From IMG/VR virus record IMGVR_UViG_3300047094_000048, positions 1-21,765 of that record: a DNA stretch of 21,765 nucleotides. The stretch is one strand, 5' to 3'. Shown piece after piece: positions 2,995 through 20,329 of the stretch. Source of the DNA: a virus. Both the position numbers and the translations under genes were made by a program. The notes under the pieces were generated by a model that had not been told where the DNA came from, ran no database searches, and worked only from the letters and a program-made list of their open reading frames with translations. Position 1 is the stretch's first letter, and every line of letters starts with the position of its first letter.

Positions 2995-3336
2995 TTAATA
3001 GTCCATATCGCTTTGAATATTCATAGGATTCATACCAGCAGAATAGTAATTTTGTGCAGGTCTTTGGTTATAAGCCGACATTTCTGCATTAGCCATGTCT
3101 ATTTTTTGTTGGTCTTGTTGTCTGCGTAAAGCATTAGCCATAGCAATTTGGTCGTATCCAGCACCAACTTGTTTACCATCAACTGTCATACCCGCTTGAT
3201 TGGTCAAATTCATGCCTTGTTGTAAAGCCTGTTGTTGCATAGCTTGTTGTGCGGCTATGTTTTGCATATACGGGGATAGCCCACCTAAATCTTGGGTTTG
3301 TGGCATTTGTTGAATGTAGGGGTTGTACATATTCAT
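2995..3336 (-). CDS. Small Gln/Met-rich virion protein (113 aa)
   Basis: This short protein is rich in Gln, Met, Asn, Ala and Tyr (repeated Q-rich runs around residues 8-40, then NPYI- and NYYSAGMNPM-type segments). It has no transmembrane segment and no recognisable motif. Its ATG overlaps the TGA of the S74-domain gene in an ATGA junction, and its TAA lies one base before the ATG of the 416-aa gene, so translation is probably coupled on both sides. Position and size resemble the smallest member of a three-protein ejection set (P22 gp7, T7 gp14), but similarity in sequence cannot be claimed. Composition is close to the N-terminus of the following protein, which suggests that the two interact or share ancestry. 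Confidence 0.7.
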   Translation of the reverse strand: MNMYNPYIQQMPQTQDLGGLSPYMQNIAAQQAMQQQALQQGMNLTNQAGMTVDGKQVGAGYDQIAMANALRRQQDQQKIDMANAEMSAYNQRPAQNYYSAGMNPMNIQSDMDY

Positions 3337-4391
3337 GGTAATAGTCCGTAATCTACGACTTTATAGCCGTCATCTAGGGTTTTAACTGCGTATGGGAATA
3401 CTTGCTCTACTTCTTGTGCCATTACACCAACATGGATACCATCACCTGCTAATGGGTGCGATTTAACTTCATTTTTGTATTCAAAGCTATACAAGGTCAA
3501 ACCATTATCCATTACACCGATTGCTTTAATATTTTCTTTTGCACGAATGTCAGACATTAATGGGATACCTGCACTAGCTAAACTAAATAAACCTTGATTT
3601 AGATTGGCTTGGGCGGCTTGTTTAGCGTTAAAGTCACCCATTTGGGCGTTGTATCCCATCTGTGTTGCACCCAATATATCAGGGCCAGCAGTTGTAGCTT
3701 GTTGAGCAGAATTAACAAATTGTGGGCCTTGTACTTGTGCCCCTGTACGAACCGCAGAAAGGGTGTTCAAAGGCTCATTTCTAAGATAAGCCAATTCTTG
3801 CAATGCAGATTGACGAGCAGTTTGACCAACATTAAAGCCTTGAGTTGTGGCTGCAGCTAATAAATCATTTTCACGCCTTGCTTGTGTCAACATTGCTCTT
3901 TGATAGGCCTCAGAACCAATATCAATTCCACGATTAGCTAAGTCTTGATTTAAGCGGTCACGACTTTCTTGAATCTGTGGTTGTAGCCGTTGCATATACG
4001 CATCTTGATAGCTTTGGCTAGGATTAAACCCTGTAGTCGGTAATTTGCTGACATCAAACGGGGTTTCAAGCATATTTTGTACATAGCCCAAACCTTTTTC
4101 AGACAGTTGACCTAGACCAACACTAGCTTTATTTTGATAGTCAAGCAGTTGTTGTTGGGCTGGGCTTAATGCTTGTGTAGCAGTCCAAGTAGGGTTTCCG
4201 TAGGGGTCAGCACCAGTAACTTCGTACTTTAAAGTACCATATGGTGTAATTTGATTAACACGATTAGCTGCAGTTGCAACACGAGCCGCATCAATATTGC
4301 CAGCAGCCGTTTCAACAGCCGCACCCCTGTAATCAGGTGCGGCAGGTGCACTCGGAGGAGGCCCTAATCCTAAAAATCCACCACCACCCAT
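3333..4391 (-). CDS. Tail protein with short C-terminal S74 intramolecular-chaperone domain
   Basis: Residues 1-20 are a Gly/Pro/Ala-rich leader. Residues about 20-270 are Ala/Gln-rich and largely helical, with PYGTLKYEVTG and NRGIDIGSEAYQRAM segments. The last 73 residues are a peptidase S74 domain: it opens with S280-D-I-R-A-K285-E-N-I and continues through LYSFEYKNE, GVMAQEVEQVFPYAV and VDYG. In endosialidase-type S74 domains the first Ser and the Lys five residues later form the self-cleaving dyad, and both are here. The protein ends right after VDYGLLP, so the long C-terminal helix usual in these chaperones is absent. The gene follows the gp10-like hub, where P22 has its needle gp26. It is probably a tail needle/tip or ejection-linked protein that trimerises and may be cleaved. 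It starts one base after the acetyltransferase stop. Confidence 0.8.
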   Translation of the reverse strand: MGGGGFLGLGPPPSAPAAPDYRGAAVETAAGNIDAARVATAANRVNQITPYGTLKYEVTGADPYGNPTWTATQALSPAQQQLLDYQNKASVGLGQLSEKGLGYVQNMLETPFDVSKLPTTGFNPSQSYQDAYMQRLQPQIQESRDRLNQDLANRGIDIGSEAYQRAMLTQARRENDLLAAATTQGFNVGQTARQSALQELAYLRNEPLNTLSAVRTGAQVQGPQFVNSAQQATTAGPDILGATQMGYNAQMGDFNAKQAAQANLNQGLFSLASAGIPLMSDIRAKENIKAIGVMDNGLTLYSFEYKNEVKSHPLAGDGIHVGVMAQEVEQVFPYAVKTLDDGYKVVDYGLLP

Positions 4392-16778: not shown

Positions 16779-18137
16779 TTAATACCTTTGATTAGTAATT
16801 CGTGGCGTAGATTTCCACATTTCCTCTAGCGTAACCTCATTCTGTCCAACAACGATGCCACGAATCGGTGCGTTTTGCTTCGCAATTTCTGCTTCATCTC
16901 GCCAAGCCACAGAAAGCATCCTAAAAGCATCCGCTCCATGACTAGTCCAATCATGTCTAGGCTTATCTCTAAATACTTTCTTATCTTCATCGTATTCCCG
17001 TTGGTACTGACGCAAACATTCAATGCCTTCTGAACACTTCATGGCATCAAACCAAGTGCGACTTAACGCCATTCTTGTAGCTTGTATGCCGTCTTGTAAT
17101 GACAGATTAGGTACGATTTTAAACAAATTTCCGCTTTTTAGGGGCAATTTATCTATTAATTGTTCAATTATTGACTTTCCACCGCTTGCTAAAGTCTTTG
17201 CTCTCGCATCGTGTGGTAGCCAATGTGTGCCATATTCGTATGGTCGTTCTTTAATTTGATTGGCGTAATACACAATCGGTTGCCCATGAGCTTCGTGGTA
17301 ATCCAATACCCGTATCTCTCCATGTACGACCTGAAACCACCAAATAGCCGTAGCATCGTTAAAGCCCAAGTCCCAAGCCGTATGCACAGGAAATAAGGTG
17401 TCGCACTCAACCTTGTCAATACGCCCTGCATCGGTCAACAATCGCATCTCTGTGCCGTATATAGCCCCAATGATGGCAGCTTCAAAGCTACATTCAAACT
17501 CTTGCTGATATTGGTCAACGCTCATAGACTTTAAGGCATCGTCTAATTCAGCCTGTAAGATTAATTGGGTCTGACTAGCCCGTAATACAGAGCTATACCA
17601 TTCATTCTTGTTAATCGTGGCGTATTGGTATATGTCGTAAAAGGTATTGTGACCCTTTGGCGTACCAATAAAGGTTGCCCAACCTTGTCTATCAGCCAAT
17701 AGGGGTCGGATTACCTCGCCCCATATTTTTGGCTTCATGTCGGCATATTCGTCTAAGACTACGCCATCTAGGTATAAACCCCGCAAAGCATCAGGATTGT
17801 CTGCACCAAATAGACGAATTCTAGCCCCGTTGAATAACTCCACCCACAACTCTGAGATATTGTGCTTAACCCTAGCAGGCTCGCTAAACTGCATAAGGTA
17901 ATCAAAAGCAATAGACTTAGCTTGAGCATAATACGGGGCAATGTAGGCATATCGGGCATTTTCCTTAGTTTCGGTCAAAGCTCGCCAAAGAATGTCGTTA
18001 ATACAGGCTACAGTCTTACCAGCCCTTCGGTGGGCAATAATCACAGCCCATCGTTGTTGTCTGTTGTGGAAGTCCTCAAATACAGTTCTTGGGGTGTATA
18101 GCTCTATGACCCGTTCATCAAAGTCTACTTCTTCCAT
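16779..18137 (-). CDS. terL: Terminase large subunit (ATPase-nuclease packaging motor, 452 aa)
   Basis: It pumps DNA into the prohead and cuts concatemers. Walker A is A35-H-R-R-A-G-K-T42; Walker B is L123-D-G-V-V-L-D-E130 with catalytic Glu at the end; the coupling motif G158-T-P-K-G162 follows. The nuclease half shows D256-L-G-F-N-D-A (first catalytic Asp), LPHDA with D310, and a C-terminal SHGADAFRM segment holding the third acidic site. Length and order are those of a complete TerL. The ATG lies inside the small-terminase gene (13-nt overlap), which supports coupled synthesis. The cutting mode (headful or cos) cannot be told from these bases. Confidence 0.95.
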   Translation of the reverse strand: MEEVDFDERVIELYTPRTVFEDFHNRQQRWAVIIAHRRAGKTVACINDILWRALTETKENARYAYIAPYYAQAKSIAFDYLMQFSEPARVKHNISELWVELFNGARIRLFGADNPDALRGLYLDGVVLDEYADMKPKIWGEVIRPLLADRQGWATFIGTPKGHNTFYDIYQYATINKNEWYSSVLRASQTQLILQAELDDALKSMSVDQYQQEFECSFEAAIIGAIYGTEMRLLTDAGRIDKVECDTLFPVHTAWDLGFNDATAIWWFQVVHGEIRVLDYHEAHGQPIVYYANQIKERPYEYGTHWLPHDARAKTLASGGKSIIEQLIDKLPLKSGNLFKIVPNLSLQDGIQATRMALSRTWFDAMKCSEGIECLRQYQREYDEDKKVFRDKPRHDWTSHGADAFRMLSVAWRDEAEIAKQNAPIRGIVVGQNEVTLEEMWKSTPRITNQRY

Positions 18138-18613: not shown

Positions 18614-18805
18614 TTACATATCCTTCATCTTATCGGTAAGCATTTGTTTTCTAGTCTTTTTGGGCGGTTTTGCAGTCTTAGCCGACTCAATAAAGTCTTG
18701 CTTGCTTGGAGCGTCTTTGCTACCAACCTTGTTCATCTTTTCGCCTGAACCCGCCTTAATCCTAGCCCTTTTGCGGTGAATATTGGCATATAGTCCGTCT
18801 TTCAT
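18614..18805 (-). CDS. Small basic conserved phage protein (63 aa)
   Basis: I choose the ATG at 18805, which overlaps the upstream TAA (TAATG) and has GGAG six bases before it. A longer form from an ATG at 18817 (67 aa) is possible but has a weaker site. The product MKDGLYANIHRKRARIKAGS continues with GEKMNKVGSKDAPSKQDFIE and a basic tail. I recognise the G-L-Y-A-N-I-H-x-K-R pattern from many unnamed small phage proteins. The function is unknown. It is one of four tiny basic genes in a row ahead of the terminase genes, all tightly linked. Confidence 0.78.
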   Translation of the reverse strand: MKDGLYANIHRKRARIKAGSGEKMNKVGSKDAPSKQDFIESAKTAKPPKKTRKQMLTDKMKDM

Positions 18806-19071
18806 TAGCAACTCCATCTCGCTCTTGCTGCTTTTCCTCGTTCCCCAGTCCAGCCTTTTGACCTTGCACAGAAACTATCATGGCGTGGCCCACTAGCTTG
18901 GGGGGCTTGTAAATTTGCGTTGTTCTTGCGGTTATAGGCAGCTCTGCCTTTTGCCGTCATACCTGCACCTTCTTCAACCGATAGGTAATTACGACCTTTG
19001 CCTTTAGTAGTTTTAGGTATTGGCTTATCGTGCTTATCCATTGCTGCACGAATTTGGTCTTGCCTACTCAT
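18805..19071 (-). CDS. Small basic protein, DUF6321-like (88 aa)
   Basis: The product has G-K-G-R-N-Y-L (residues 23-29), then G-A-G-M-T-A-K-G-R-A-A-Y-N-R-K-N-N-A-N-L-x-A-P, and ends with RHDSFCARSKGW and KAARARWSC. This order, with the final R-W-x-C, is the pattern I associate with the unnamed family DUF6321, found in many phages; the family name is from memory. Two Cys residues (in SFCAR and at the very end) may pair or bind metal. Its ATG overlaps the preceding TGA (ATGA) and its TAA overlaps the next ATG. Highly basic; nucleic-acid binding is plausible but unproven. Confidence 0.75.
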   Translation of the reverse strand: MSRQDQIRAAMDKHDKPIPKTTKGKGRNYLSVEEGAGMTAKGRAAYNRKNNANLQAPQASGPRHDSFCARSKGWTGERGKAARARWSC

Positions 19072-19253
19072 GCTTTTTCTTCAATGTATTTGCCGTAGGC
19101 TTCTTCTAGCTTATTCTTGCGGTTGCCTTTGGCGTATTTACGCTCAGTTGCAAGAGCAATAGCAACAGCTTGTTTCTTAGGTTTGCCAGCTTTCATTTCG
19201 GTCTTGATGTTCTTGCCTACCGCTTCTTTGCTACCTGATTTCATTAATGGCAT
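19068..19253 (-). CDS. Small Lys-rich conserved phage protein (61 aa)
   Basis: The product starts MPLMKSGSKEAVGKNIKTEM and continues with the helical KAGKPKKQAVAIALATERK. This is a very common small phage protein with the pattern K-S-G-S-K-x-A-x-G-K-N-x-x-x-E-M-x-A-G-K-P-x-K-Q-A-x-A-I-A. AAGGA lies six to seven bases before the ATG. Its TGA overlaps the next ATG. Its function is unknown to me. The helix with Lys at both ends and an Ala-rich middle could contact nucleic acid. It opens the set of four small basic genes. Confidence 0.8.
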   Translation of the reverse strand: MPLMKSGSKEAVGKNIKTEMKAGKPKKQAVAIALATERKYAKGNRKNKLEEAYGKYIEEKA

Positions 19254-19264
19254 AAAATATCCTT

Positions 19265-19621
19265 TTATTTCAAGAACTTAAGTTTATAAGTCGTAGTGTT
19301 AATTAAGTCGGCAATTTCATCAATAATGTTCTGTAGTTCGCTATCTTGCGGTAAATCTTGGCGAGCATCGGCTACAAAGTTTTGTAGAGATTCTAGGTAT
19401 TTAACAGGGTCTTTGGGTTGGTGATACACGCTTGGAAATGCGGTGAATTTGCCATACTTGCCCATATAAGCTTCTGCAAAGGCATCGGTTAAATCCACAA
19501 TGCCATCGTAATATTCGCCTAAAGCAATGTGCTTAGAATAAGAGTCGGTACTCCAATGGAAAAAATGCGTGTTAGTCGCAGAATGTAGCAATGTAGCTAC
19601 GAATAATGCACAATTTTCCAT
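19265..19621 (-). CDS. Dps/ferritin-like protein, DUF5856-type (118 aa)
   Basis: The helical N-terminal half has H13, H19, H22-W23, H31, E36, D46 and E50. In E. coli Dps the ferroxidase residues are H51 (followed by Trp), H63, D67, D78 and E82. Here H22-W23, H31, D46 and E50 keep the pattern, with exact H-to-D and H-to-E spacing (15 and 19) and a loop three residues shorter after HW. The D67 place is Gly35, next to Glu36. The C-terminal half has two further helices. At 118 aa it is shorter than Dps (about 167). I associate this form with the phage family DUF5856. Such a protein may bind iron or DNA, or only keep the four-helix fold. AAAGGAG precedes the ATG. Confidence 0.75.
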   Translation of the reverse strand: MENCALFVATLLHSATNTHFFHWSTDSYSKHIALGEYYDGIVDLTDAFAEAYMGKYGKFTAFPSVYHQPKDPVKYLESLQNFVADARQDLPQDSELQNIIDEIADLINTTTYKLKFLK

Positions 19622-19648
19622 AGAATCTCCTTTACATACCCAATTATA

Positions 19649-20329
19649 TTAGGTTTTTTGCAAAATCCATACACTCCAATAAGGGTAGGCATTAAAAAAG
19701 TTATCGTCTTTATCCTCTGTCGGTTTGTATTTAGACCTAACAAATTTGTTATATGCCTCGACATCAAACATAAATCCATGCTTTTGGAATAGCCTATACC
19801 AGTATTCAATGGGCTGAATATTGCAATGTGTAGGGTCACCCATATACATTTCTTTGGTTTCCCCATCTTTTACGGCATCTAAACAAATAAACAAACGCCC
19901 TGATTTCTTGATAATTCTTGAAAATTCTTGAAGAATGGCATCCATCTGTTCTTCGGGGATATGCTCTAAGACTTGAGCGGTATGCACCAAATCAACGCTT
20001 TCTGTTAGGGCGGGGGTGTTAGCAATAGACCCACAAACCAGTTCATTGGCGTAATACTCAAAGTGGGTACGACCTAACCCAATCATGGCATCATTTAAAT
20101 CTACCCCTAAAACACGCATATTGAGCTTCTGAAAGCCTTTTAGGATAGAACCACACGCACACCCAGCATCTACAACAAACCCGTCACGAGGCGTTTTACA
20201 AGCTTCCACGACCATTTTGGCGTATTCTTCTTGCCAGTAGCCATGCCCAAGATAATCTAAACCAGCGTCTTTATGCTCGTCATAGTAGTCTTGGGTGTAT
20301 TCGGTGACTTTAAGATTGTTCACTAACAC
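19649..20329 (-). CDS. SAM-dependent methyltransferase, class I (226 aa)
   Basis: Motif I is V52-V-D-A-G-C-A-C-G60, the SAM-binding loop; the acidic residue after strand 2 is D77 in VLGVDLND; SVDLVHTAQVLEHI (111-124) is the typical motif before a class-I helix. Further on come SGRLFICL and GDPTHCN...EYWYRLFQKHGF, the usual C-terminal pattern of methyltransferase 11/25-like enzymes. No DNA-methylase motif (DPPY/NPPY) is present, so a small molecule, sugar, lipid or protein substrate is more likely. The start is GTG at 20329, with AGGA seven bases upstream, inside the VRR-NUC gene (20-nt overlap). A second GTG lies two codons later. Confidence 0.88.
   Translation of the reverse strand: MLVNNLKVTEYTQDYYDEHKDAGLDYLGHGYWQEEYAKMVVEACKTPRDGFVVDAGCACGSILKGFQKLNMRVLGVDLNDAMIGLGRTHFEYYANELVCGSIANTPALTESVDLVHTAQVLEHIPEEQMDAILQEFSRIIKKSGRLFICLDAVKDGETKEMYMGDPTHCNIQPIEYWYRLFQKHGFMFDVEAYNKFVRSKYKPTEDKDDNFFNAYPYWSVWILQKT

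Follow-up and report, generated by a model that had tools for sequence, protein, structure and literature searches.

In Dps, metal sites are formed between two subunits with antiparallel helices B, and a short helix lies between helices B and C. Phages also encode true Dps: 155 phage records match a search with Escherichia coli Dps, and one paper describes Dps in Lactobacillus and gut phages. DUF5856 (PF19174), or PHROG 858, is a family of shorter proteins. The family itself, a Dps-like label in crAss-like phages and the idea of a ferritin in the virion of one Vi01-like phage are all already known. Here we describe a DUF5856 protein encoded at positions 19265-19621 of the window, by which we mean the whole stretch of 21,765 nucleotides that was analysed. 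It is a clear member of the family and carries the same four invariant ligand residues.

The protein shares its four-helix fold with Dps (E. coli b0812, PF00210), and four of the ferroxidase positions of the two line up. It differs from E. coli Dps in being acidic, in having Gly at the D67 position and in lacking the N-terminal tail, the helix between B and C and a match to PF00210; it is also 49 amino acids shorter, in line with the 50 or so missing residues estimated in the first-pass annotation. RI.-1 (MobD.6) of T4 matches DUF5856 with E=5e-33 and, like the window protein, is predicted to fold into a ferritin-like four-helix bundle (pLDDT 90.6; Z >13 for YciE and YciF). Unlike the window protein, it has Asp at the D67 position, giving five ligands, and its gene lies beside rI. 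Sajous1 gp217, LIMEstone1 ORF078 and CBB_169 are DUF5856 proteins with the same four ligands that, in contrast to the window protein, have been found experimentally in virions; CBB_169 has Asp at the D67 position in place of the Gly of the window protein. DpsA of crAss-like phages has the four ligands of the window protein plus D67 and is a distant relative (22% identity to the window protein; the one example scanned, L088, scores 25.2 bits against PF19174, for which the cut-off is 34.6). Our preferred reading, to which we give a probability of roughly 0.6, is that the window protein is a virion-associated, metal-binding relative of Dps that protects from iron or carries it.

The gene and its neighbourhood

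The open reading frame lies on the minus strand, starts with ATG, encodes 118 amino acids and has a well-placed ribosome-binding site. All of the residues to which the first-pass annotation had drawn attention (H22, W23, H31, G35, E36, D46 and E50) are present when the sequence is read directly. The gene and the codons discussed below are as follows.

19265..19621, minus strand: DUF5856 / PHROG 858 Dps-like protein, 118 aa (PF19174, phrog_858, AF2)
19627..19632, minus strand: Shine-Dalgarno sequence AAGGAG, 5 nt from the ATG (direct sequence reading)
19556..19558, minus strand: H22 codon, Dps H51 position (invariant in 216/216; hhalign and hmmsearch align it to the Dps His, one alignment disagrees)
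19529..19531, minus strand: H31 codon, Dps H63 position (invariant in 216/216)
19514..19519, minus strand: G35-E36 codons, Dps D67 position and its neighbour (variable)
19484..19486, minus strand: D46 codon, Dps D78 position (invariant in 216/216)
19472..19474, minus strand: E50 codon, Dps E82 position (invariant in 216/216)

The protein matches PF19174 with E=3.7e-26 and 92.4 bits (gathering cut-off 34.6) over positions 1-94 of the 94-position model, and phrog_858 with E=1.4e-28. Gene names among the phage matches listed are mostly hypothetical protein or starvation-inducible transcriptional regulator. The latter is also the PHROG label, and we found no support for the window protein being a transcription regulator.

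The gene belongs to a run of genes on one strand, with a methyltransferase gene upstream and, after the DUF5856 gene, genes for three small basic proteins, a 95-aa protein and the large terminase. The small basic proteins and terminase downstream had been pointed out in the first-pass annotation.

19068..19253, minus strand: 61-aa basic protein (pI 9.9, phrog_2423), a linked neighbour in 79/80 close loci
18805..19071, minus strand: 88-aa basic DUF6321 protein (PF19846, E=4.9e-10), in 61/80 close loci, many on short contigs
18614..18817, minus strand: 67-aa basic protein (pI 10.2, phrog_16028), in 77/80 close loci
16779..18137, minus strand: terminase large subunit (PF03237, E=2.1e-9; phrog_2, E=2.2e-43)

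The close loci are the best 80 of the 566 viral-contig relatives described in the last section, and as many of them lie on incomplete contigs the neighbour counts are lower bounds. The start of the 61-aa frame falls a median of 12 positions past the end of the DUF5856 frame, on the same strand in 79 of 79 cases. Among the 16 loci of more distant groups (L185-L200), terminase, present in two, was the sole such neighbour found. Since the neighbours are kept in the close loci and are nearly absent from the distant groups, the linkage is a property of this lineage and not of the family.

Three side observations concern other genes of the window. The methyltransferase gene (19649-20329) lies between a Holliday-junction-resolvase-like gene and the DUF5856 gene; it occurs in 16/80 close loci, against 43/80 for the resolvase-like gene (many of these loci being incomplete), and may therefore be an optional insertion. 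The DUF6321 protein is matched by two much longer families, phrog_10346 and phrog_3477, near their C-terminal ends only, as though the tail domain of larger phage proteins here stood by itself. The C-terminal end (SDIRAKENI...) of a 352-aa protein at 3333-4391 bears what we take to be a resemblance to the intramolecular chaperone / S74 peptidase domain of tail fibres.

Kinship with Dps and the ligand positions

When the window protein is used as a single sequence, the PDB yields weak matches only, the best being a neutrophil-activating protein at E=0.043, and PF00210, against which E. coli Dps scores 80.4 bits, is absent among its Pfam matches at E<=1. A family-profile sequence search of the PDB places Dps-type chains on top, with seven distinct chains at E<0.001 (best 8e-5). 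The top 24 chains (to E=0.45) carry Dps, neutrophil-activating, peroxide-resistance, Dlp and ferritin-type names together with 'antigen TpF1' and 'CAIP'; NapA, Dlp and TpF1 we take to be Dps-type proteins. The first clearly unrelated chain appears at E=0.61. Comparison of a 61-sequence family alignment with 36 Dps sequences by hhalign yielded a match of 50 columns (probability 86, E=4.8e-6) with the ligands in register, while a control against 14 ferritin-type reading frames chosen by motif gave a probability of 0.1. With a single E. coli Dps (probability 1.9) or two Dps sequences (1.4) on the other side, the comparison gave no significant match.

The AF2 monomer model (pLDDT 95.6, pTM 0.89) is a ferritin-like four-helix bundle, the outcome that had been named beforehand as a check on the Dps-like assignment. 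Its helices span residues 2-24, 28-56, 72-87 and 94-117; no helix is seen at residues 57-71, so that the B-C helix of Dps is missing. VIA-align superimposes 117 residues on E. coli Dps with an rmsd of 2.2 and Z 13.4, a value to be read in the light of the fact that helical bundles, even unrelated ones, can reach Z 13. Other ferritin-like proteins score close to Dps against the model (PA2169, Z 14.0; mini-bacterioferritin, 12.7), and Foldseek finds no match in the PDB at E<=0.001 (best 0.31), the top ranks being mostly Dps. Since ferritin-like proteins other than Dps score alike, structure alone cannot single out Dps. The kinship follows from sequence and structure evidence combined, fold scores by themselves being insufficient, and on this combined evidence DUF5856 stands beside Dps in the ferritin-like superfamily, as a sister branch of shorter proteins.

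The central test concerns the ligand columns. An alignment of 198 sequences, drawn from T4-like, Ackermannviridae, jumbo, crAss-like and environmental phages, shows no exception in the columns of H22, H31, D46 and E50 (198/198), and the same holds for 59/59 representatives at 90% identity and 20/20 at 60%. With 18 added sequences (T4, LIMEstone1, Sajous1, FrontPhageNews, CBB-type and T4-type contigs and two bacterial-assembly members) the same four columns are invariant in 216/216, and no other column of the window protein is, in sets that hold near-duplicates: the window copy occurs twice (window and L081), and T4, CBB and GAP32 each come from two sources in the set of 216. The patterns of the first scan included some ligand residues, and the resulting ascertainment bias affects the distant groups less. 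The chance that four random invariant columns of 118 would all fall on the five Dps ligand columns is 6.5e-7; a chance origin of the match is very unlikely. The close sequences are also under purifying selection, with a median dN/dS of about 0.05 (2,430 usable of 3,160 pairs from 80 sequences; median dS 1.2, hence partly saturated).

The 36 Dps sequences behave in a parallel way. Their positions 51, 63, 78 and 82 are invariant, and position 67 is D in 16, E in 15, M in 3 and Q in 2. Profile alignments place H22, H31, D46 and E50 of the window protein on H51, H63, D78 and E82, and at the fifth position, D or E in 31/36 Dps, the window protein has Gly35. Among the 216 family members this position is also relaxed (Q 79, G 60, A 50, D 24, E 2, R 1), with Asp found in RI.-1 of T4 and JS98, in the CBB/GAP32/RaK2 type, in the crAss DpsA type and in one bacterial-assembly member (L206). 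DUF5856 thus keeps the strict positions of Dps and relaxes the one that Dps relaxes. The first-pass annotation had asked whether the His, Asp and Glu positions are conserved among homologues and had pointed to Glu36, beside Gly35, at the changed D67 position. Four of its five positions stand at 216/216 and Gly35 with Glu36 alongside is indeed what the window protein has; Glu36 itself varies (E 103, G 60, K 25, D 10 and other residues in the rest of the 216), and we reject it as a general, family-wide replacement of D67.

The spacing from H31 onward is that of Dps, as had been claimed (H31 to D46, +15; H31 to E50, +19), whereas H22 and H31 are 9 residues apart against 12 for H51 and H63 of Dps. 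A spacing of 12 is found between H19 and H31, and a default alignment of seven sequences pairs H19 with Dps H51. It is H22 that takes this place in the profile alignments, in a nine-sequence alignment and in the structural match (which assumes a gapless helix A), and position 19 (H 206, K 8 of 216) resembles position 48 of Dps (K 16, H 14 of 36). H19 was rejected as the H51 equivalent on these grounds.

In the AF2 model, helix B holds H31, D46 and E50, and H22 lies at the end of helix A. D46 and E50 are found 15-19 residues further along the same helix than H31, and by helix geometry they would be about 22-28 Å away from it. H22/H31 and D46/E50 are thus too distant within one subunit, and a metal site would require two. 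As in Dps, the two subunits would pair through antiparallel helices B with the metal sites between them; the strict conservation of both ligand halves predicts such a dimer. The site would bind Fe(II) and probably oxidise it using peroxide or oxygen. A structural metal, for example Zn stabilising the oligomer, would make the protein a non-redox virion component, in keeping with the absence of the fifth ligand from most members and with the low peptide counts in virions. Yet the family retains all four ligands that are invariant in 36 Dps, and complete five-ligand members exist (T4, CBB, crAss), so that we regard a purely structural metal as distinctly unlikely.

Relatives in purified virions

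Our account draws here on published work (PMC6832632, PMC5259590, PMC3296691, PMC10892097, PMC13119998, PMC3622015, PMC6235969, PMC8008677, PMC7354516, PMC3184105, PMC7247149). In jumbo phage CBB, CBB_169, which matches DUF5856 with E=2.7e-25, was reported in CsCl-purified particles with 3 unique peptides (26.3% coverage). ORF078 of LIMEstone1 (Ackermannviridae; 13.15 kDa) was reported in virion proteomics with 3 peptides and 28.21% coverage; it is annotated as 'confirmed structural protein', has a putative late promoter directly upstream, matches DUF5856 at 8.8e-29 and is 39% identical to the window protein. Sajous1 (Ackermannviridae) gp217, a DUF5856 protein with E=1.3e-28, was listed with a count of 10 in CsCl-purified virions. 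In CsCl-purified particles of the T4-like phages ValerieMcCarty03 and ValerieMcCarty04, a 'starvation-inducible transcriptional regulator' (gp108 and gp100) is reported with 26 and 27 spectra, which ranks it within the 40 proteins exceeding 15 spectra; two spectra or more were obtained for 153 proteins in the one sample and 135 in the other. ValerieMcCarty03 gp108 matches DUF5856 at 5.2e-34 and its gene adjoins a lysis-inhibition gene. We confirmed the DUF5856 identity of CBB_169, ORF078, gp217 and ValerieMcCarty03 gp108, and ValerieMcCarty04 gp100 is included by its published name alone. As for other phages, the words Dps and DpsA are absent from the main text of the phiCrAss001 paper with virion proteomics, the text of the CBA120 paper contains none of the names sought for the DUF5856 protein, and no homologue could be assigned to the phAPEC6 table. 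The binding or storage of iron in the virion, one of the functions offered by the first-pass annotation, gains indirect support from the published proteomics of relatives.

Peptide counts in the relatives are modest and their particle preparations may include carry-over; the protein might instead act in the infected cell, clearing Fe(II) or peroxide or tuning the lysis clock. T4 rI.-1 adjoins rI; a review of the work of Golec et al. describes it as part of the rI operon and states that lysis inhibition collapses slightly later when it is over-expressed. Several members lie near genes for thymidine kinase, tRNAs or holin, outside any obvious structural block, and host dps and catalase are reported to increase during YerA41 infection of Yersinia. 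Such a role has to be set against the finding of relatives in purified particles from three groups of phages, with CsCl purification for CBB, Sajous1 and ValerieMcCarty. Moreover, RaK2 has an RI.-1 relative and yet, according to its authors, is without holin T and antiholin RI, which makes lysis inhibition unlikely as a family-wide role. All in all, we consider a protein confined to the infected cell unlikely, though by no means negligible.

The virion has also been linked with iron-dependent entry. Sajous1 gp217 was called a 'ferritin' by Phyre2 (confidence 96.7) and tied by its authors to the Ferrojan-horse idea, in which the protein would load the tail with iron and so exploit the iron-uptake receptors of the host; the authors also put its gene and that of a tail completion protein into one hypothetical operon. 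However, Vi01-like phages are reported to infect TonB- or FeoB-deficient Salmonella about as efficiently as the wild type, which argues against entry by way of iron uptake in that host, and a tail location was found for no DUF5856 member. We therefore hold this route to be very improbable.

Homology to Dps and the adjacent genes for small basic proteins might suggest that the protein condenses or coats DNA; condensation was among the roles offered by the first-pass annotation. This proposal did not survive a look at the charge. The window protein has a net charge of -7 and a pI of 5.0 and no basic N-terminal tail, the structural match placing model residue 1, where the protein starts, on residue 30 of E. 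coli Dps; in the family the median pI is 5.12, with values <=7 in 195/197 sequences and >7 in 2/197. Acidic charge and the missing tail are evidence against DNA coating, and on these grounds we rejected a DNA-condensing Dps, a role that we find scarcely credible here. Our preferred reading remains the virion-associated metal-binding protein. It would be produced late and would enter or coat the particle; it might shield virion proteins and the DNA, packaged or entering the cell, from iron, carry iron, or serve early in infection.

Distribution and meaning of the family

Relatives of DUF5856 occur in 692 of 50,697 phage records (tblastn, E<=0.01), and 566 of the 576 candidates taken from viral contigs proved to code for one. 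Bacterial genomes rarely carry the family: a close-relative scan of GTDB genomes confirmed 1/74 candidate stretches, and in one phylum DUF5856 scored above the cut-off in 2/299 genomes, one being the seed genome and the other match lying on a long contig. A bacterial housekeeping origin was rejected on the latter count. Two bacterial-assembly contigs (L202 and L206) carry DUF5856; L202, a 4.4-kb contig of a Holosporales MAG, could be a piece of a phage that was sorted into the bacterial bin.

Searches of BFVD with the window model returned proteins of the giant viruses Pithovirus LCPAC404 (TM 0.81, E=9.2e-5) and Fadolivirus (TM 0.78, E=5.9e-4), so that the short Dps-like fold may reach beyond phages. 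A weak match (E=0.39, TM 0.61) is A0A6J7WIS1, a 432-aa 'prohead protease' of an uncultured phage, possibly a capsid protease fused to a ferritin-like domain; the name 'prohead protease' is absent among the phage matches to E. coli Dps that were listed (60 of the 155 records).

The name DUF5856 was not found in the literature searched, nor was a statement uniting T4 RI.-1 and the structural proteins of LIMEstone1 and CBB as one family in which only the Dps ligands are invariant. The present analysis links T4 RI.-1, the 'unknown structural protein' of LIMEstone1, CBB_169, the Sajous1 'ferritin' and crAss DpsA into a single four-ligand family. It is tempting to speculate, as a tentative and rather doubtful extension, that DUF5856 is a common iron-handling part of tailed-phage particles in T4-like, Ackermannviridae, jumbo, crAss-like and small environmental phages, that is, an ancient shortened Dps recruited to the virion, with T4 RI.-1 keeping the full five-ligand centre. 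If this is the case, phage particles would own a metal site on a dedicated protein. Seen as one family, these proteins would let simple mutants address both the role of T4 rI.-1 and the question of virion iron on a dedicated protein.
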